A stretch of 40,148 nt of DNA from an uncultured Alphaproteobacteria bacterium (GTDB lineage: Bacteria; Pseudomonadota; Alphaproteobacteria; Geminicoccales; Geminicoccaceae), in the NCBI GenBank assembly GCA_902826935.1, contig CADEGR010000029.1, forward strand, positions 1 through 40,148, written 5' to 3'. Below are positions 16,978-33,344 of this stretch, piece by piece (position 1 is the stretch's first letter; each line of letters opens with the position of its first letter). The translations under genes were made by a program, and so were the position numbers. Below the pieces are notes generated by a model. The model did not search any database and had not been told where the DNA came from. It was given only the letters and a program-made list of their open reading frames with translations.

Positions 16978-18099
16978 CTAGCCTTGCTGCTCCAGCAAAG
17001 CCTGGACGATCCGGCCGCTCGCCTGGCCGTCGCCATAGGGATTATGCGCCCGGCTCATGGCGCGATAGGCCGCCGGATCGTCGAGCAGCCGGCCGGCCTC
17101 GGCCAGAATCCGTTCGGGATCGGTGCCGACCAGCTTCGCCGTGCCGGCCGCCACGCCCTCCGGCCGCTCGGTGGTGGCCCGGGTGACCAGGACCGGCTTG
17201 CCGAGCGCCGGCGCTTCCTCCTGGATCTCGCCGGAATCGGTCAGGAGCAGATAGGCGCGGCTCATCAGATAGACGAAGGGCAGGTAGTCCTGCGGCGGCA
17301 GCAGATGGATATTGGCGATGCCGGCCAGCGCCGCCGCGACCGGTTCTCGCACCTGCGGATTGGGATGGACCGGGTAGACGATCTCGACATCCGGCCGGGC
17401 CGCCAGTCGGCGGAGCGCTGTGCAGATCCGCTCGATGCCGCCCGCGAAATTCTCGCGGCGATGGCCGGTCACCAAGATCAGTCGGCGGTCCGGCGACAGC
17501 CAGCCGAACTGGGCGGCAAAGCCCCGCTCGAGCGCCGGGTCCTCGGCGAAGCGTGCCTGGAAGTGGCGAAGCGCATCGATCACGGTGTTGCCGGTGACCA
17601 AGACCGAGGCCGGCGGCGCGCCTTCGCGCAGCAGGTTGGCGCGCGCCTCGGGCGTGGGCGCGAAATGGAGCGCCCCCAGCACGCTGATGCAGCGCCGATT
17701 CGCCTCCTCCGGGAAGGGCTGGCCGAGGTCGCCGCTGCGCAGGCCCGCCTCGACATGGGCGACCGGGATGCGGGCATAGAAGGCGGCCAGCGCGGCGGCA
17801 AAGGCGGTCGTGGTGTCGCCCTGGACCAGGAGCCAGTCGACCGGCCGGGCGGCCAGGACCTCGGCCATGCGCGGCAGCACGCGGGTGGTGATGTCGGTCA
17901 GCGATTGGCCAGGCGTCATCACCGCGAGGTCGATCGAGGGCGCGATGTCGAACAGGGTCAGGACCTGCTGCAGCATCTCGCGATGCTGGCCGGTCACGCA
18001 GACCGACAGCTCGAGCGCCGGCTGGCGGGCCAGAGCCTTGATCACCGGCGCCAGCTTGATCGCTTCCGGCCGGGTGCCGAACACGGTCATGACATGCAT
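16978..18099 (-). CDS. wecB: UDP-N-acetylglucosamine 2-epimerase (non-hydrolysing)
   Basis: The 373-residue product has the full signature of WecB-type epimerases: VFGTRPEAIKLAPVIKAL at the N-terminus, CVTGQHREML, LVQGDTTTAFAAALAAFY, VAHVEAGLRSGD, PFPEEANRR, VTGHRRENF, YPVHPNPQVR and the LTDSGEIQEEAPALGKPVL segment. It interconverts UDP-GlcNAc and UDP-ManNAc in the cytoplasm. WecC, encoded at 25523, can oxidise the product to UDP-ManNAcA, so the polymer probably contains ManNAcA. Start chosen at ATG 18099, with AGGA about 10 bases upstream. It is divergent from the PEP-CTERM gene across a 320-base region rich in inverted repeats. Confidence 0.95.
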   Translation of the reverse strand: MHVMTVFGTRPEAIKLAPVIKALARQPALELSVCVTGQHREMLQQVLTLFDIAPSIDLAVMTPGQSLTDITTRVLPRMAEVLAARPVDWLLVQGDTTTAFAAALAAFYARIPVAHVEAGLRSGDLGQPFPEEANRRCISVLGALHFAPTPEARANLLREGAPPASVLVTGNTVIDALRHFQARFAEDPALERGFAAQFGWLSPDRRLILVTGHRRENFAGGIERICTALRRLAARPDVEIVYPVHPNPQVREPVAAALAGIANIHLLPPQDYLPFVYLMSRAYLLLTDSGEIQEEAPALGKPVLVTRATTERPEGVAAGTAKLVGTDPERILAEAGRLLDDPAAYRAMSRAHNPYGDGQASGRIVQALLEQQG

Positions 18100-18419: not shown

Positions 18420-19133
18420 ATGCAGCTGTCCTACCGTCGGTTTTTCGGAAGTGCGCTGGCCGCGCTGATCGGCGCTGTCGCCGCCGCTTCGCCGGTCCAA
18501 GCCGCGTTCACCCTGTCGCTCAGCGATGGCATCAATCCGAGCATCACGGTCGCCGACGAGGTGGCCGGCGACGCCAATCTCGGCACGCCGGGCTCGGTGG
18601 TCGCGATCCGGAACATCGGCGCCTGGAGCACGATCGTCTCGACCGGCACGTCCAAGCCCGAGTTGGGCGGGCCGTCCCTGATCGACCTCAACTCCTCCAA
18701 CACCAGCCGCGGCCCGGGCACGCTGACCCTCGAGCTGGTCGACACCAATTTCCTCAACCCGGCATCGGGCTTGGCCTTCCGGATCGGCGGCACGACCGAC
18801 GGCACGGTCTCGTTCGAGGCCTTCGTCAACACCGCCAACGCCGATCCCTTCCTGGGCACCAGCATCACCGGCGGGCCGGTCTCGACCTTGCCTGGCCCGG
18901 CCTCCAAGCCGTTCCTCGCCGACCGCCTGTTGTCGCTCGATCTGGATGGCACGGTGCCCTATGCGCTCGGCATCCGGGTCACCACGGTCCATACCCGCAG
19001 CGGCCGGAGCATCACCAGCTTCGACGGTGCGATCGTGGCAGTGCCGGAGCCAGGCACCCTCGGCCTGCTCGGCACCGGCCTGGTCGCGGCCGGCCTGCTG
19101 TTCCGGCGCCGGCAGCAGCCGGGTGCCAGCTGA
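18420..19133 (+). CDS. PEP-CTERM sorting-domain protein, XrtA substrate
   Basis: The 237-residue protein has a signal peptide (hydrophobic about 9-28, likely cleavage after VQA), a Ser/Thr/Gly-rich, Cys-free beta-rich body and a C-terminal sorting signal: VPEPGTLGLLGTG from residue 208, a hydrophobic helix, then FRRRQ. XrtA is expected to cut at the PEP motif in the membrane, releasing or transferring the protein to the surface. The body matches no enzyme family I know, as is usual for PEP-CTERM proteins. It is monocistronic: sigma-54 promoter at 18362, intrinsic terminator at 19163. It is the only PEP-CTERM gene I found in the window, placed beside the secretion genes and probably activated by PrsK/PrsR. 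Confidence 0.92.
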   Translation: MQLSYRRFFGSALAALIGAVAAASPVQAAFTLSLSDGINPSITVADEVAGDANLGTPGSVVAIRNIGAWSTIVSTGTSKPELGGPSLIDLNSSNTSRGPGTLTLELVDTNFLNPASGLAFRIGGTTDGTVSFEAFVNTANADPFLGTSITGGPVSTLPGPASKPFLADRLLSLDLDGTVPYALGIRVTTVHTRSGRSITSFDGAIVAVPEPGTLGLLGTGLVAAGLLFRRRQQPGAS

Positions 19134-19289: not shown

Positions 19290-19364
19290 ATGCCCTCTGC
19301 TTCGCCGGCGGCGCCGCTTTGGCGCCGTGCCGCTTCGCTGCACCGCCCAGGGAGCCTGCGATGA
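19290..19364 (+). CDS. Possible 24-codon leader ORF coupled to the next gene
   Basis: A short ORF encodes 24 residues (MPSASPAAPLWRRAASLHRP then four more). Its TGA stop overlaps the next gene's ATG (19361) as ATGA. A good Shine-Dalgarno, AAGGA (19277-19281), lies 8 bases upstream. However, the predicted -10 at 19272 would start transcription after that Shine-Dalgarno, so both cannot be right unless transcription begins further upstream. It may be a coupling peptide or chance. Confidence 0.25.
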   Translation: MPSASPAAPLWRRAASLHRPGSLR

Positions 19365-19774
19365 CCAGCGCGATCGACCCGACCAAGCCCGCCGATGGGC
19401 TGCCCGCCTCCAAGGCCGAGCTGCGCGCCAATCTGCAGGCCGCCAAGGCCGAGATCGAGGCGTTGCAGACGGAGCTCGTGGCCCAGGGTCGGCTCACGAT
19501 CAGCAACCGGACCAGCGCCACCGTCACGCTCGCGACCCTCGACGAGCGCAGCTACCTCGTGCTGCAGGCCGGCGTCGCCAGCCTGGCGGTGCCGACGGGG
19601 CTGGCGCTGGGCGCCATCATCAACGGCGTCAACGAGAGCGGCGGCACGGTCGCCGTGGTCGCGACGCCGGTCGGCTCGACCCAGTTCGCCGGCCCGACCG
19701 CGATCCCCAACGACGTGCCCTTCTCCCTGATCAAGACCGCCAGCACCAAGGTTCGCATCATCGTTGGAGGCTGA
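19361..19774 (+). CDS. Phage-particle-like small structural protein
   Basis: The 137-residue product begins MTSAIDPTKPADGLPASKAE, a style of N-terminus I associate with phage tail or particle proteins (SIDPTKP-x-DG-x-PA-x-KADLRANL). A short helix (residues 17-45, AKAEIEALQ) is followed by a compact beta-rich domain with TISNRTSATVTLATLD and LGAIINGVNESGGTV. There is no signal peptide or membrane segment. Start chosen at ATG 19361, with GGGAG seven bases upstream. It ends two bases before the ATG of the large lyase-like gene, which has its own GGAGG. It may be a trimeric base or adaptor for the large protein, as in tail-spike systems; that is inference. Confidence 0.7.
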   Translation: MTSAIDPTKPADGLPASKAELRANLQAAKAEIEALQTELVAQGRLTISNRTSATVTLATLDERSYLVLQAGVASLAVPTGLALGAIINGVNESGGTVAVVATPVGSTQFAGPTAIPNDVPFSLIKTASTKVRIIVGG

Positions 19775-19776
19775 CC

Positions 19777-22197
19777 ATGGTCGTGGCTGCAGGCTATCTC
19801 GGCGCCCTGATCGGCGCGCGCAAATCGTCGACCAGCGGGCTCTTGCACAGCATCACGCTGGCCGACACCAGCGGCGGCGGCTCGACCGGCTTCTTCCGGC
19901 TGGGCCTGGCCTTCACCAAGGGCGACGTGCCGAGCGGCAGCCGCCTGAAGGTGCAGCTGCCCGATGGCACGCCGGTCCGGGCGGCGCTGCTGGAGCCCAG
20001 CCGCTGGTCCGACGGCTCGCTCCGGCATTGCGTGCTGGCCGGCGAGGTCGTGGGCGGCGTGATCGGCCAGGTGACCTTGCAGGTGAGCGCGCAGGCTGGC
20101 AGCCAGCCGACCAGCGGCCTCGATCCCTGGGCCTATCTCGCCGCCAACAGCGACCTGCGGGTCGAGATCAGCGCCCATAGCGGCTCGCAGAGCGGCGCCC
20201 TGCCCGATCGCAGCTATCGCCTCAACGCTGCCGCCGCGGTCACCACCCGCCGCCGGCTCCAGGCCGACACGGCCGTCTGCCTGCGCCTGTTCGCCTGGGG
20301 CCATCCGAGCGGCGAAAAGCATCTGATGTGCCTGCACTATGTCGATCTGTGGCTGGCCGCCAGCGGTGCCGTGGCCGCGATCGAATGGACGCCGGTGCTC
20401 TCGCAGCATTGGTGGATCGACAATCCGTTCGGCGACGGCGCCCAACCCAAGGAGCTGCGCAGCTACGCCGCGAGCGTCCGGGACGGTGCTGCCACGCTTG
20501 CCAGCTATGCCGGCCTCGAGCATGCCTATTACTGCCAGTGGGCAGCCCTGCGCACGGCCGATGACGACCAGCACGCCAAGCGCTTGTGGCTGTCCAAGGG
20601 CACCGCCATGCCGACCTTGGCGGTGACCTACAGCCTGGCCAGCAAGCAGCGCATGATGCGGGCTGGCTACCTGCCGCCGCTTGATCAGGCGACCAGCTAC
20701 AACGTCACCTATGGCGCTGCCTACGAGCCGCTCGGCCTGAACAACCATCGGGCCGCGATCAACGGCACAGGCGGCTATCCCGGCCGCGGCCTGATCACCA
20801 ACATGGATTCGGTGGCCCTGGTCAACCAGACGCCGGCCAACTGGCGGGTGGCCCGGGTCAGCGCCCAGGCGACGCTCTCGGTGCATCATCACATCAAGGA
20901 CCATCGCGCGGCCGGCGGCGATGTCAGCCTCGGCCTGATGCCGCTGCCGATCACGCGCCTGGGCGCCCAGAGCTATCCGGGCCTGGCCGCCGAGACGATC
21001 GCGGTCACCGGCACCGGCGCCACCTTGCCGGACGTGGCGCCGGTCGGCGGCAGTGGCGCCTTCAGCAACTGGGACGACGCGCACCACACGGTCTACGCCT
21101 ATTTCATGGCGTTCATCGAGGGCGAGCGCTATCTGGCCGACGCCGTGCTCGACCAGTATGGCTACTTCCTGCAGGCGGCGAACTGGGACGGCTTCGGCCG
21201 CAACCCGCCCCATGTCTGGGGCCTGGACGCGCCGCGCCGGGACCTCACTGGCATCCCCTACACCAGCCAGTTCTTCGGCGCGATCGGGCTCGGCCACCGC
21301 CAGGAGCGCAGCTATTGCTGGACCCAGCTGAGCTGGGATCACGCCTATGCGCTCTTGCCGGACGGCGACCGCCATCTGCCGTACTTGCGCAACCTGATGG
21401 ACAATGCCAGCACGTGGCTGGCCCAAAGCGCCGGCTTCTTCCCGGCCAGCAACCTCGCCTTCGGCGGCTGGTGGTTCCGCAACCCGCCGGCGCTGAACGT
21501 CTGGATGCAGTCGCTGACCTCGCTCGCCTTCATGCGCCATCAGCTCCTGACCGAGAACGGCCATGCCGGGCACGGCACGGTGATCGGGCTGATCAATAAG
21601 ATGCTGGTCAACCTGTTCGACCATCATCCCTACGCGCTGCACGAGGCGGTCCATGCGGTCACGACCGATGACACGGTCGCGCTCGCCTTCCTGCCGCCCA
21701 ACGAGATCTTCGTCCAGCACCAGCCGGACATCGTGAACAGCGTGCTCACGCTCAGCAACAACAAGCGCCTGCTGCCGCAAAACGGCGACCAGGTGATGTT
21801 CACCCAGCTCCTGGATCAGGTGCCGCCGCCCCAGGTGGTGGTCGGCCAGCGCTACTACGTCGTGCAGCAGGCCCAGGTGAACGCCACCACCGCGACCTTC
21901 CGGATCGCGGCCACGCCCGGCGGCGCGCCGTTGACGCTCGGCGACGTCGCCAATTGCCGGACCCTGTTCAAGATGGCGGCCTACAGTCAATTCCCGGTGA
22001 TCGGTGCTGGCGGCTCGCCGATCCCGGCCGACGACGAATTCATGTTCATGGCCCAGGCCGCTTGCGAATATGCCTATGGCAGCGGTCGAAGCGAGCTGCC
22101 TTTGACTAAAATTCAATCAATTAGAGCGTTTACATCACCCAAGACATTTAGTAATTTCGCGAACTGGAACTTCGACGGCGACATCATCCGCTCGTAG
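19777..22197 (+). CDS. Large glycan-lyase-like protein with a phage-tail-like segment
   Basis: The 806-residue protein has a strong ribosome-binding site (GGAGG, 6 bases before ATG). Residues about 35-110, with FFRLGLAFTKGDVPSG, LKVQLPDGTPVRA and SRWSDGSLRHCVL, resemble the N-terminal RIFT-barrel domain of PcRGLX/YetA-type exo-rhamnogalacturonan lyases. The middle (about 200-640) is rich in Trp, Tyr and His (for example LSQHWWIDNPFGDGAQ and FSNWDDAHHTVYAYFMAF) and looks like an alpha-toroid catalytic domain. Near 685-725, VVVGQRYYVVQQ and ATFRIAATPGGAPLTLGD match a segment common in phage tail proteins. No signal peptide is seen. A polysaccharide-cutting or polymer-binding role, perhaps in EPS turnover, is inferred. 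The last 35 codons are unusually AT-rich. Confidence 0.75.
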   Translation: MVVAAGYLGALIGARKSSTSGLLHSITLADTSGGGSTGFFRLGLAFTKGDVPSGSRLKVQLPDGTPVRAALLEPSRWSDGSLRHCVLAGEVVGGVIGQVTLQVSAQAGSQPTSGLDPWAYLAANSDLRVEISAHSGSQSGALPDRSYRLNAAAAVTTRRRLQADTAVCLRLFAWGHPSGEKHLMCLHYVDLWLAASGAVAAIEWTPVLSQHWWIDNPFGDGAQPKELRSYAASVRDGAATLASYAGLEHAYYCQWAALRTADDDQHAKRLWLSKGTAMPTLAVTYSLASKQRMMRAGYLPPLDQATSYNVTYGAAYEPLGLNNHRAAINGTGGYPGRGLITNMDSVALVNQTPANWRVARVSAQATLSVHHHIKDHRAAGGDVSLGLMPLPITRLGAQSYPGLAAETIAVTGTGATLPDVAPVGGSGAFSNWDDAHHTVYAYFMAFIEGERYLADAVLDQYGYFLQAANWDGFGRNPPHVWGLDAPRRDLTGIPYTSQFFGAIGLGHRQERSYCWTQLSWDHAYALLPDGDRHLPYLRNLMDNASTWLAQSAGFFPASNLAFGGWWFRNPPALNVWMQSLTSLAFMRHQLLTENGHAGHGTVIGLINKMLVNLFDHHPYALHEAVHAVTTDDTVALAFLPPNEIFVQHQPDIVNSVLTLSNNKRLLPQNGDQVMFTQLLDQVPPPQVVVGQRYYVVQQAQVNATTATFRIAATPGGAPLTLGDVANCRTLFKMAAYSQFPVIGAGGSPIPADDEFMFMAQAACEYAYGSGRSELPLTKIQSIRAFTSPKTFSNFANWNFDGDIIRS

Positions 22198-22279: not shown

Positions 22280-23122
22280 ATGGCGACGACCGGACCGCTG
22301 GAGGCCGCCTTCAAGACCGGCCGCGGCAATTGGCAGGCCTGCACCCTGCCCCTCCAGACCATGCTTGACGCGGCCCAAGGCTGGGCCGACCGTTTGGCCG
22401 GCATTGACCGCCCCTGGCTATGTTGGAGCGTGCATTCCGACTGGTCGCTGCTGCAGCAGCGCCTGGTCGCCTCGGTCGGCTGGACGCCGGTCGTGGGCTT
22501 CGACCCGCGCTTCGGCCGGCCCGCCACGATCGCGGCGGCCGTGCCGGTGGACTTCAACGAGCAGCTCGGCCTGCCGGTGCTGTTCCCCCATTTCGTCCTG
22601 GAGTTCGCGTTCCTGTTCGCCAAGCGGCTGGCCTTTTGGCACTCGGATCTGCTGCTCCGGCCATCGGACATGGCGAATTTCGCGGAACAGTTCGCCGCCC
22701 TCGAGGATGGCGAGATGGCGGCGGTCCGCTCGCCCGGCGGCTGGCGCGGCTGGTTCGCGGGCCGGACCCGGCGCTGCTGGGAGCTGCTCGGCTGCACCAC
22801 GCAGGGCGCCTCGCGCGATCAGTTCGAGCGCGGCTGCGGCTGGTGGATGCATTTCGAGCATCATCCGAACTTCAGCGGCCCGCCCGGCTTCCATCCCCAT
22901 TGGGAATATGGCTGCGGCATCTGGCACTGGCGCAGCCAAGGCGGCCGCGTGCACGATCTGAGCGAGCGCCACGTCGCCTATGGCCACTTCTCCCGGACCC
23001 GCAATGCCGCCTACGAGGCCAGCACCGCCAACAACGTGTTCCGCAATCTGAACCGCGACATCATGCAGAACTACAAGCTGACGGATTGCGCCCACGAGCT
23101 GGGCCTGTCCGCCTACTTGTGA
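22280..23122 (+). CDS. Orphan 280-residue protein, possibly glycosyltransferase-like
   Basis: I do not firmly recognise this protein. It has no signal peptide or membrane segment and is rich in aromatics and Cys. Visible features are SVHSDWSLLQQRLVASVGWTP early on, FAFLFAKRLAFWHSDLLL mid-protein (a possible DxD-like site at HSD), and a C-terminal block with GCGWWMHFEHHPN, FHPHWEYGCGIWHW, VHDLSERHVAYGHFSR and a helical tail. The pattern of a WHSD-like loop, a GGG-x-W region and a late Y-x-HF motif is reminiscent of small GT-A-like glycosyltransferases of unknown specificity; this is weak inference. The ATG follows AGGGAGA. It overlaps the next reading frame by GTGA, so the two are probably coupled. 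Confidence 0.75.
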   Translation: MATTGPLEAAFKTGRGNWQACTLPLQTMLDAAQGWADRLAGIDRPWLCWSVHSDWSLLQQRLVASVGWTPVVGFDPRFGRPATIAAAVPVDFNEQLGLPVLFPHFVLEFAFLFAKRLAFWHSDLLLRPSDMANFAEQFAALEDGEMAAVRSPGGWRGWFAGRTRRCWELLGCTTQGASRDQFERGCGWWMHFEHHPNFSGPPGFHPHWEYGCGIWHWRSQGGRVHDLSERHVAYGHFSRTRNAAYEASTANNVFRNLNRDIMQNYKLTDCAHELGLSAYL

Positions 23123-23136
23123 GCGGCTGGGCCAGC

Positions 23137-23844
23137 ATGAGCCGGCTGCGGCGCTTCCTCGCCAGCCTGCAGGGCGCGCCCGCGCTGGCGGCCGCCCAGA
23201 AGGCGGCGGACACCCGGGCGCTGCAGATCCTGCAGCGGCTCGATATCGGCCTGGACTTCGTGCCCTGGACCCGCTCGGCGATGCGGCCGAGCACGGTCGT
23301 GCATATCCTCAACGACATCGCGATCAACCGGCGCAGGGCCATCCTGGAGCTGGGTGCTGGGATCTCGACCCTGTATCTGGCCTGGGCGGCGCGCCGGCAT
23401 GGCGCCAGCTTCCTGTCGATCGAGGAGGATGAGGGCTGGGCCGGCCAGGTGGCCAGCTACCTGACCATGGCTGGCCTCGCCGCCAACGCCCGGCTGCTGG
23501 TCTGCCCGCGGCTGGTCACGACCGGCGGCAGCAGCGTCGGGCGCTGGTACGATCCGCAGCTGGTCAAGCAGGCCCTGGGCGACCAGCGCTTCGATCTGGT
23601 CGTGATCGATGGTCCCGCCGCCTTTCGGCCCGGCGACGGGCAGGCGCGCGGACCGGCCCTGGACCTGCTGCACGATCATCTGGCGGAGCGCTGCGCGCTC
23701 TTCCTGGACGACGCCGTGCGGCCGGGCGAGCGCCAGATCGTGGCCGAATGGGCGCGCCAGCTGCAGGTGACCGCCCTGGTCGACGAGATCGAAGGCGGCC
23801 ACGCCTACTTCGCACGCGGGCCGCGCTTCTTTTCGGCCAACTGA
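23137..23844 (+). CDS. Class I SAM-dependent methyltransferase-like protein
   Basis: The 235-residue protein has a helical N-terminus, then motif I ILELGAGISTLYLA near residue 70, an acidic loop LSIEEDEGW (motif II), FDLVVIDGPAAFRPG (motif IV region) and ALFLDDAVRPGE (motif V/VI). This is a class I methyltransferase fold of the Methyltransf_24 kind, acting on an unknown substrate, probably a sugar or glycan intermediate. Two starts are possible: GTG at 23119, overlapping the previous stop as GTGA, or ATG at 23137; I list the ATG, but coupling favours the GTG. It converges on the flippase gene with a 7-base gap. Confidence 0.8.
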   Translation: MSRLRRFLASLQGAPALAAAQKAADTRALQILQRLDIGLDFVPWTRSAMRPSTVVHILNDIAINRRRAILELGAGISTLYLAWAARRHGASFLSIEEDEGWAGQVASYLTMAGLAANARLLVCPRLVTTGGSSVGRWYDPQLVKQALGDQRFDLVVIDGPAAFRPGDGQARGPALDLLHDHLAERCALFLDDAVRPGERQIVAEWARQLQVTALVDEIEGGHAYFARGPRFFSAN

Positions 23845-25522: not shown

Positions 25523-26722
25523 ATGACGCCAAGCATCTGCGTGCTCGGCCTTGGCTATATCGGTCTGCCGACCGCGTCCTTCCTGGCGACCAAGGGCTGC
25601 CAGGTGATCGGCGTCGACATCTCGGCCGGCGTGGTCGACGCGATCAATCGGGCGGAAGTGCCGATCAAGGAGCCGGAGCTGGATGTCCTGGTCCGCTCGG
25701 CAGTCCAGTCCGGCAATCTCGTGGCGCGCACCCAGGTCGGCCCGGCCGACATCTTCATCATCGCCGTGCCGACCCCGATCCGGCCGGACAAGTCACCGGA
25801 TCTGAGCGCGGTCGAGGCGGCGGTGGCGGCGATCGCGCCGCATCTGGCGCCCGGCAATCTGGTGATCCTGGAGTCCACCTGCCCGGTCGGCACTACCGAC
25901 GGGCTGGTCGCAGGCATCCTGCGCCAGCACGACATCGAGGTCGGCCGCAGTGTCCATCTGGCGCATTGCCCGGAGCGGGTCCTGCCCGGCCGGATCCTCA
26001 CCGAGCTGGTCCAGAACGACCGGATCGTCGGCGGCGTCACGCCCGCCTCGACCGAAGCGGCGGCCGCGTTCTATCGCCAGTTCGTGAGCGGCGAGGTGCT
26101 CGAGACCAGCGCGCGGCTGGCCGAGATGGCGAAGCTCGCCGAGAACACCTTCCGCGACGTCAACATCGCGCTCGCCAACGAGCTATCGATCATCTGCGAC
26201 CACGCCGGCATCGACGTCTGGGAGCTGATCCGCCTCGCCAACCGCCATCCGCGGGTCGCCATCCTGAAGCCGGGCCCCGGCGTGGGCGGCCATTGCATCG
26301 CGATCGACCCGTGGTTCATCGTGGCCCAGGCGCCGGAGCATGCCCGGCTGATCCGGACCGCCCGCCAGGTCAACGACGCCAAGCCCGACTGGGTGCTGGC
26401 CAAGGTCCGCGACAAGGCGGCGCGCTTCAAGCACCCGACCATCAGCTGCCTGGGCCTGACCTTCAAGGCCGACGTCGACGACCTGCGCGAGTCGCCGGCG
26501 TATCAGATCGCGCGGCGCCTGCAGCAGGAGGAGCTGGGCCAGATCCTGGCCTGCGAGCCGCATCTCGACCGGCTGCCCGAGCTGCCGCTGGTCGGGCTGG
26601 AGGAGGCGATCACGCTCGCCGACATCATCCTGGTCCTGGTCGATCACCGGGAGTTCCGCCGGCTGCAGCCGCATCAGCTGCAGGAGAAGATCGTGATCGA
26701 CACCCGCGGCCTGCTGCGCTGA
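25523..26722 (+). CDS. wecC: UDP-N-acetyl-D-mannosamine dehydrogenase
   Basis: The 399-residue protein is a UDP-sugar 6-dehydrogenase. It has an N-terminal Rossmann NAD site VLGLGYIGLPTA, substrate-domain motifs AVPTPIRPDKSPDLS, LESTCPVGTT and AHCPERVLPGR, helix LAEMAKLAENTFRDVNIALA, and the catalytic Cys258 in PGVGGHCIAIDPWF. The C-terminal domain has LGLTFKADVDDLRESPA. The VGGHCIAIDPWF version and VLPGRILTEL favour UDP-ManNAc over UDP-Glc as substrate. With WecB it would supply UDP-ManNAcA. It is forward, alone, with its own promoter region shared with the divergent flippase gene, and converges on a small membrane-protein gene with a 22-base gap. Confidence 0.93.
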   Translation: MTPSICVLGLGYIGLPTASFLATKGCQVIGVDISAGVVDAINRAEVPIKEPELDVLVRSAVQSGNLVARTQVGPADIFIIAVPTPIRPDKSPDLSAVEAAVAAIAPHLAPGNLVILESTCPVGTTDGLVAGILRQHDIEVGRSVHLAHCPERVLPGRILTELVQNDRIVGGVTPASTEAAAAFYRQFVSGEVLETSARLAEMAKLAENTFRDVNIALANELSIICDHAGIDVWELIRLANRHPRVAILKPGPGVGGHCIAIDPWFIVAQAPEHARLIRTARQVNDAKPDWVLAKVRDKAARFKHPTISCLGLTFKADVDDLRESPAYQIARRLQQEELGQILACEPHLDRLPELPLVGLEEAITLADIILVLVDHREFRRLQPHQLQEKIVIDTRGLLR

Positions 26723-31821: not shown

Positions 31822-33344
31822 GCGCGAGCCTGCCCGGCCGCCTGCGCGACGGGCCGTGGCTCCGGGCGTCGCTCGCCTTCGGGCTGCTGACGGCGCTCCT
31901 CATCGCCGCCACCTTCGACACGCTGCAGAGCATGGTCACGGTCTGGCACGCGACCACGACCTACCATCACTGCTTCCTGGTCCTGCCGATCAGCCTGGCC
32001 CTGATCTGGCGCCGGCGGGCGCGCCTCCGGCGCTATCTGCCGCACCATTCGCCGGCAGCGCTGCTCGGCCTGCTCGGCTTCGGCGCGCTCTGGCTGATCG
32101 GCCTGGCCGGCGACCTCAGGCTGTTCCAGCATGTCGCCCTGATCGGCCTCCTGGTCAGCCTGTTCGTCGCCGTGTTCGGCAGAGGCATCGCGCGCGAGAT
32201 CCGCTTCCCGCTCGCCTTCCTGGCCTTCATGGTGCCGGCCGGCAACGTCCTGATCCCTCACTTGCAGAGCTTCACGGCGGAGTTCGCCGTGCGGCTGCTG
32301 CGCCTGGCCGCGGTGCCGGTCTTCCAGGACGGCATCATGATCGAGACGCCGGCCGGCGTCTTCGAGGTCGCCGAGGCCTGCGCCGGCGTCCGCTTCCTGA
32401 TCGCGAACATGATGGTCGGCGCGCTGTTCGCCCATCTGGCGCTCAGCGGCTGGCGCAAGCGTATGGCCTTCCTGGCGGTCGCCGCCGCCTTGCCGATCAT
32501 CGCCAATGGCCTGCGCGCCTTCGGCATCATGTACCTGGCCCAGCTGACCGGCCACGCCCAGGCCGCGAGCGTCGATCATCTGCTCTATGGCTGGATCTTC
32601 TTCGCGCTGGTCATGGTCGCCTGCCTGGCGCTCGGCAGCCGGTTCGCCGATTGGCCGGTCCTGGTCCAGGATCCCGGCCCCCGCCTGATGCCGATCCGGG
32701 CACCCTGGCGCGTGGTCCACATGCTGCCGGTCGTCCTGCTCCTGGTGGCACCGCAGATTTACGCCCGTACGATCATGGCCAGCGGCGCCAAGCCGTTCGC
32801 CAGCGACCCAGGCAGCATGCTGGCGCTCGACCTCGATTGCCTGAAGGGCCCGCCGAGCACTGCCGACTGGAGCCCTCGCTTTGCCGGCGCCGATGTCACG
32901 CTGGCAGAGAGCCTGGCCTGCCGGGGCCAGACCGTCGATCTGTTCGTGGCGCTCTACGCCCGTGAGACGCAAGGCGTCGAGCTGGTCAACCACGCCAACC
33001 GGCTTGACGACGGGGTCACCTGGAAGCGGGTGGCGAGCGGCTGGTACGACCCCAAGATCGCCGGCCTGCCGGCCAAGGTCCGGCTCGAGCAGCAGCGCGG
33101 CCCAAACGGGTTGCGCGTGGTGCTCGCCTGGTACTGGGTCGGCGGCCATGTCACGGCGCAGGCCTGGCAGGCCAAGCTCTGGCAGATCGGTCGCACGCTG
33201 ACCGGCCGCGCAGCACCGGCAGCCCTGATCGCGCTGAGCGCGCCGGTCGAGGACGTGCCGAATGCCACCTTGGCGACGCTGCGGCCGCTGCTGCGCCAGC
33301 ATCGCGAGATCGAGCGCTTTCTGAGCGCGCTCGCGGCCTCCTAG
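31818..33344 (+). CDS. xrtA: Exosortase A fused to EpsI
   Basis: The 508-residue protein is the transmembrane cysteine protease that cleaves PEP-CTERM proteins. The N-terminal half has about eight membrane segments and the catalytic triad expected of the family: Cys188 in VAEACAGVRFL, Arg233 in IANGLRAFGIM and His254 in SVDHLLYGWIFF. After a last membrane segment (about 300-315), residues about 320-505 form the EpsI domain, with LFVALYARETQGVELVNHANRLDDG split by typical spacing, then VRLEQQRGPNGLRVVLAWYWVGG. Fusion of EpsI to XrtA is the known form in many proteobacteria. The ATG at 31818 overlaps the deacetylase stop. The substrate at 18420 lies 13 kb away. Confidence 0.95.
   Translation: MSASLPGRLRDGPWLRASLAFGLLTALLIAATFDTLQSMVTVWHATTTYHHCFLVLPISLALIWRRRARLRRYLPHHSPAALLGLLGFGALWLIGLAGDLRLFQHVALIGLLVSLFVAVFGRGIAREIRFPLAFLAFMVPAGNVLIPHLQSFTAEFAVRLLRLAAVPVFQDGIMIETPAGVFEVAEACAGVRFLIANMMVGALFAHLALSGWRKRMAFLAVAAALPIIANGLRAFGIMYLAQLTGHAQAASVDHLLYGWIFFALVMVACLALGSRFADWPVLVQDPGPRLMPIRAPWRVVHMLPVVLLLVAPQIYARTIMASGAKPFASDPGSMLALDLDCLKGPPSTADWSPRFAGADVTLAESLACRGQTVDLFVALYARETQGVELVNHANRLDDGVTWKRVASGWYDPKIAGLPAKVRLEQQRGPNGLRVVLAWYWVGGHVTAQAWQAKLWQIGRTLTGRAAPAALIALSAPVEDVPNATLATLRPLLRQHREIERFLSALAAS

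Follow-up and report, generated by a model that had tools for sequence, protein, structure and literature searches.

Why does an exosortase EPS locus of a member of the Geminicoccaceae contain two adjacent genes that resemble parts of phage tails, and what would their products do there? The window, i.e. the whole stretch of 40,148 nucleotides that was analysed, is an entire contig of a 4.77-Mb genome that is 94.7% complete. Within it, P0001 (positions 19361–19774, forward strand) encodes a protein of 137 amino acids and is followed after a gap of 2 bases (junction TGACCATG) by P0002 (19777–22197, forward strand), which encodes 806 amino acids; both genes start with ATG and have no internal stops. 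We lean towards the view that P0001 and P0002 are a domesticated phage-tail-type pair which is used on the polymer of its own EPS locus.

The gene pair in its EPS locus

By its gene content the contig is an EPS locus of the exosortase type, with genes for an exosortase, Wzy, Wzx, Wzz, Wza, an initiating sugar transferase and a polysaccharide deacetylase, together with glycosyltransferases, an asparagine synthase, a GNAT/FemAB-like protein and a PEP-CTERM protein. The latter (18420–19133, forward strand) is located immediately 5' of the pair. The exosortase with DUF3485 (31824–33344, forward strand) lies 9.6 kb from P0002; position 31824 is no start codon and the true start lies further 5', close to the preceding gene or in overlap with it. 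A 280-amino-acid protein without family match (22280–23122, forward strand), for which no Pfam, PHROG or phage homologue was found, and a methyltransferase-like protein (23137–23844, forward strand) are likely encoded in the same transcription unit as P0001 and P0002. Because the locus also encodes a UDP-GlcNAc 2-epimerase (16978–18099, reverse strand; product UDP-ManNAc) and a UDP-ManNAc dehydrogenase (25523–26722, forward strand; 544 bits at a cut-off of 459) that forms the uronic acid donor UDP-ManNAcA, a uronic acid is probably among the sugars of the EPS.

The GC content of P0001 (0.705) and P0002 (0.674) as well as their codon usage fall inside the range of the neighbouring genes, in support of the first-pass annotation, which had read a neighbour-like GC content as the sign of an old transfer. 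The pair had also been described there as host-owned and placed among EPS genes, and this was borne out. No other open reading frame in the 40-kb window matched the phage ORF set, with which prophage controls gave dozens of matches; a prophage remnant was rejected on this basis, and no recognisable prophage surrounds the pair.

The particle families Terminase_6N, Phage_portal, sheath and GTA_TIM were not found in the 94.7% complete genome, while they were detected in the controls, and a GTA, tailocin or prophage as partner of the pair was rejected on these grounds. The same result bears on the idea that the pair serves in trans as a tail component for a gene transfer agent, a tailocin or a phage. 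Precedent exists in TspA of RcGTA, a tailspike of phage origin that depolymerises EPS, is retained by its host and has its gene at a locus apart from the GTA cluster (PMC13420450). However, TspA is reported essentially only alongside Rhodobacterales GTAs, and it has a β-helix, a β-sandwich N-terminus and co-regulation with its GTA (PMC13420450), whereas no such GTA was found in this genome. Taken together, we consider a supply in trans very improbable.

P0001 carries a phage-type head

P0001 consists of a phage-type virion head (residues 1–36) and a small β-rich C-terminal part. The head, with the motif MTSAIDPTKPADGLPASKAELRANLQAAKAEIEALQ (19361–19468, forward strand), matches 75 viral contigs, which confirms the phage-structural N-terminus that had been noticed in this protein; the identity to L040 is 73% over 37 amino acids. 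A helix is predicted for residues 18–41, and the structural model is confident for the helix-bearing N-terminal part only. For the C-terminal part the model is poor and no convincing relative was found. The protein gp38 of ESV1 looked alike by eye but was rejected as a counterpart of P0001 at an hhalign probability of 0.5%.

A Thiohalocapsa phage encodes a virion-module protein in which an N-terminus matching the P0001 head is fused to a weak PIG-L deacetylase match. This gene (L024:10001–11065, Thiohalocapsa phage g24) might encode a tail deacetylase.

The predicted fold of P0002

P0002 alone gave no Pfam, NCBIfam or PDB sequence match. Its AlphaFold2 model, built from 21 sequences (mean pLDDT 55.8, pTM 0.69), has a β region followed by paired helices. 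The N-terminal β region is RIFT barrel-like and spans approximately residues 22–250 (19840–20526, forward strand), and the modelled helical (α/α) region covers approximately residues 287–790 (20635–22146, forward strand), its second half with low confidence. The four best PDB matches of this low-confidence model were all PL26 PcRGLX (E 5e-4 to 3e-3, probability 0.98–1.00; TM 0.15–0.34), and nothing else came close. The two best matches among viral models include a protein of an uncultured Caudovirales phage. PcRGLX (PDB 5XQG, 5XQ3, 5XQO and 5XQJ; PF19501) combines a RIFT-barrel N-terminus with a helical toroid, which the low-confidence P0002 model resembles. It is, however, a fungal pectin enzyme, namely a PL26 exo-rhamnogalacturonan lyase, whereas the relatives of P0002 are EPS-locus and phage proteins.

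In contrast to P0002 itself, which has no significant Pfam match, two relatives exceed the cut-off of 22.1 for PcRGLX_1st (PF19501), the viral protein L158 with 34.1 bits and gp39 of EBPR siphovirus 1 with 23.3 bits. Together with the best matches of the model, these scores sustain the PcRGLX-like N-terminal domain that had been assigned to P0002. Among the aligned relatives, His436, Arg511 and Trp515 show no variation and Tyr442 is conserved to 98%. P0002 keeps all four of these family-conserved residues in a putative active-site stretch (21082–21330, forward strand), whereas the Arg that is invariant in the other aligned relatives at position 518 is replaced by Leu518.

As judged from its best matches, the predicted fold of P0002 is PL26-like and of a glycan-active type. 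It is not the classical trimeric β-helix tailspike fold. With PcRGLX as best match, the fold is not one unrelated to glycan-active or tail proteins, which would have spoken against the first-pass reading.

Relatives of P0002 in phages

Close relatives of P0002 were not found by peptide patterns in genomes or viral contigs. A class-wide search with P0002 yielded weak matches, among which three (L013, L014 and L016) are related proteins of similar architecture; the matches L011, L012, L015 and L017–L019 resembled noise or translations in a wrong frame and were set aside. One of the three related proteins matches EBPR siphovirus 1 gp39 (27% identity, E 9e-32), whose gene is located between terminase and head genes. 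In an alignment-based search of IMG/VR the family comprised 45 viral loci on 43 contigs. Against the iterated family profile, residues 23–550 of P0002 score 96 bits, and the closest viral protein is L158 with 42.5 bits. EBPR siphovirus 1 gp39 and the IMG/VR members belong to the same family as P0002 and to a late phage module, whereas P0002 is part of an EPS locus of a bacterium, in which no further phage genes were found.

Three phage contigs (L145, L146 and L148) have a tail-fibre gene with the P0001-type head one gene 5' of the P0002-family gene, and thus both components co-occur in phages. The YYVVQQ...AATPGGA segment of P0002 (residues 693–717; 21853–21927, forward strand), previously called phage-tail-like, resembles by eye a segment that is similarly placed in L158.

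The PL26-like family in other exosortase loci

In a class-wide profile search of 385 genomes, the P0002 family turned up in 15 genomes other than the source, where many members have RTX repeats or hydrophobic N-termini and are located among EPS genes. Flanks were extended for ten genomes, and eight of these have an exosortase homologue 10–22 kb from the family gene, in loci that also contain Wza, Wzz and deacetylase homologues. The choice of these ten favoured long contigs and, in most cases, EPS-like surroundings, so that the proper denominator is all 15 genomes, of which at least 8 have the association. This is still far above the approximately 1% expected by position, although the members are related and therefore do not count independently. 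The same kind of UDP-ManNAc dehydrogenase is encoded in two of these loci (G330 and G241). The finding is more general than first stated: a lyase-like family is common to phage tails and exosortase loci. The earlier assertion that no such pair is described for XrtA loci stands for the combination of head and giant protein, which has so far been seen only here, but not for the headless PL26-like family, which recurs in at least eight others. A literature search, which had most subscription papers outside its scope, found no prior description of such a pair.

The PL26-like proteins of these alphaproteobacteria (L192–L202), with RTX repeats or signal peptides, share with P0002 the family and the kind of locus with an exosortase 10–22 kb away. 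They differ from it in that they mostly have export signals, lack a phage head and cluster separately in the best tree, whereas neither a signal peptide nor RTX repeats were recognised in P0001 and P0002 by simple inspection and hydropathy. In this tree, 13 EPS-locus members fall into one group, while P0002 groups with the phage protein L158 and the TAT-type protein L206 (SH-aLRT 96, with long branches). The P0002 family is absent from all other genomes of the order (32 genomes including the source), and P0002 was thus most simply acquired horizontally.

The direction of this transfer could be read differently, with P0002 as a divergent bacterial EPS-locus lyase and only the head gene derived from phages, or with phages having taken both from bacteria. 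The occurrence of the same family near exosortases in at least eight other alphaproteobacteria agrees with such an origin, and in the AU test a position of P0002 within the EPS-locus clade was not rejected (p 0.33). The best tree, however, joins P0002 to L158 and L206, and P0002 has a phage-type neighbour and neither RTX repeats nor a signal peptide. We regard these alternatives as improbable.

Giant proteins that combine RTX repeats with a PL26-like domain are encoded in two exosortase EPS loci. One of them (L192:2107–10734, reverse strand) has 2875 amino acids and many cadherin-like domains, the other (L195:10362–17300, reverse strand) has 2312 amino acids.

Head-bearing proteins in other Geminicoccaceae

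The head found in P0001 is carried by 4 of the 32 genomes of the order, each belonging to another genus. In the source genome it also opens a 619-amino-acid protein with a pectate-lyase/tailspike β-helix match, which is encoded on contig C86 between GT4 and GT2 genes and near NeuB. A head-bearing protein of 510 amino acids in G021 is tailspike-like (PHROG 2234, E 1e-17) and encoded between a GT4 gene and a flippase gene. A tailspike-like head protein of 547 amino acids in G003, apparently split across two contig ends, is followed by GT4. The GT4 proteins beside the spikes of G003 and C86 are 64% identical and the spikes 31% over 487 amino acids; the synteny of spike and GT4 is conserved between these two loci. 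G002 has two small head proteins near two large, mutually related proteins, one of which matches chondroitinase B. A methyltransferase and a putative glycosyltransferase are encoded nearby, but housekeeping genes adjoin as well, which makes this the weakest EPS assignment among the four genomes. Phage tailspike depolymerases (PHROG 2234 and others) are matched by the sister head-bearing proteins, whereas P0002 has no β-helix.

Beyond the order, a class-wide draw of 385 genomes contained one further genome with the head, there in a prophage. A scan of 84,980 species genomes for the head pattern gave 8 loci, of which two are those of G003 and G021 and the others are phage-like. Head matches outside the Geminicoccaceae (L033, L034, L035, L037–L039 and L162) were set aside because of their prophage or viral contexts, in the case of L033 and L039 as judged by eye. 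When the ORFs of the Geminicoccaceae loci were compared with the phage ORF set, only the head-bearing ORFs and P0002 matched, in comparison to dozens of matches in the prophage controls. Proteins with this head, most of them tailspike-like, are encoded next to sugar-polymer genes in four genera of the Geminicoccaceae and outside prophages.

This recurrence, once with conserved synteny, also argues against an old prophage leftover or phage-borne cargo that drifts without function in the EPS locus, as do the intact ORFs, the host-like codon usage and the lack of any other phage gene in 40 kb. Drift would nevertheless explain why both proteins have phage relatives and no evident secretion signal, why one invariant Arg was lost and why only this genome among the 32 of the order has a P0002 relative. 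We consider it rather unlikely.

In G003, the contigs C78 and C63 (L161 and L160) both end within one head-bearing gene, as if the assembly broke there. The two large proteins of G002 (L009:7765–15526; 598 and 1006 amino acids) are 43% identical over 547 amino acids, and the two head-only proteins near them have about 80 amino acids.

Possible function of the pair

As a domesticated pair, P0001 would provide a short coiled-coil-like head, of the kind with which phage tail fibres and spikes begin, and a small β part, and P0002 would be its glycan-active partner, with a RIFT barrel and an α/α region related to PL26 lyases. Polysaccharide lyases act by β-elimination next to a uronic acid. Due to this need for a uronic acid and the formation of UDP-ManNAcA by the locus, the EPS is a plausible substrate of P0002. 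From fold and gene content we infer that P0002 probably acts as a lyase on ManNAcA-containing EPS. It would cut, or at least grip, the strain's own EPS and might thereby trim, release or remodel the polymer. We also infer a partnership of P0001 and P0002 as well as their export, which would need the lysis of some cells, as discussed for the release of TspA (PMC13420450), or another route.

Several observations count against this reading. So far a single genome has this exact pair, both proteins are without evident export signal, in contrast to most EPS-locus relatives, and P0002 has Leu518 in place of the invariant Arg, with TM values to PL26 of at most 0.34 at a mean pLDDT of about 56. A possible loss of catalysis through Leu518 would leave a binding protein, as expected for a decoy at the cell surface, or an EPS binder, that would shield the strain from phages with this EPS as receptor. 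The guard against capsule-targeting phage that had been suggested at first is not supported as stated, and we give the decoy very little credence.

On a wider scale, we tentatively propose, as a possibility short of a probable one, that Geminicoccaceae keep spike-type proteins, with phage heads and interchangeable glycan-active bodies (β-helix, chondroitinase-B-like or PL26-like), as particle-free parts for polymer processing in EPS loci, and that alphaproteobacterial exosortase loci and phage tails use one PL26-like lyase family, so that a common enzyme would serve both the EPS producers and the phages that infect them. If so, tail spikes would be parts that bacteria adopted for their own capsule-making, beyond their role as anti-capsule weapons, and exosortase EPS loci would gain a candidate polymer-cutting enzyme with a fold common to phages. 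ManNAcA-containing EPS would be a testable substrate, and the family a source of new EPS depolymerases.

A minor observation concerns genes adjoining the family in viruses. On viral contig L142 (7390–8034, forward strand), a PEP-CTERM protein ending in VPEPVSMAALGVGLLGLGLVRRKSL is encoded immediately 3' of the P0002-family gene, and PEP-CTERM-like proteins take the same place on three other viral contigs (L155:7003–7668, L154:3934–4647 and L159:3326–4018). Phage-borne PEP-CTERM proteins adjoining a lyase-like tail gene would be unusual.
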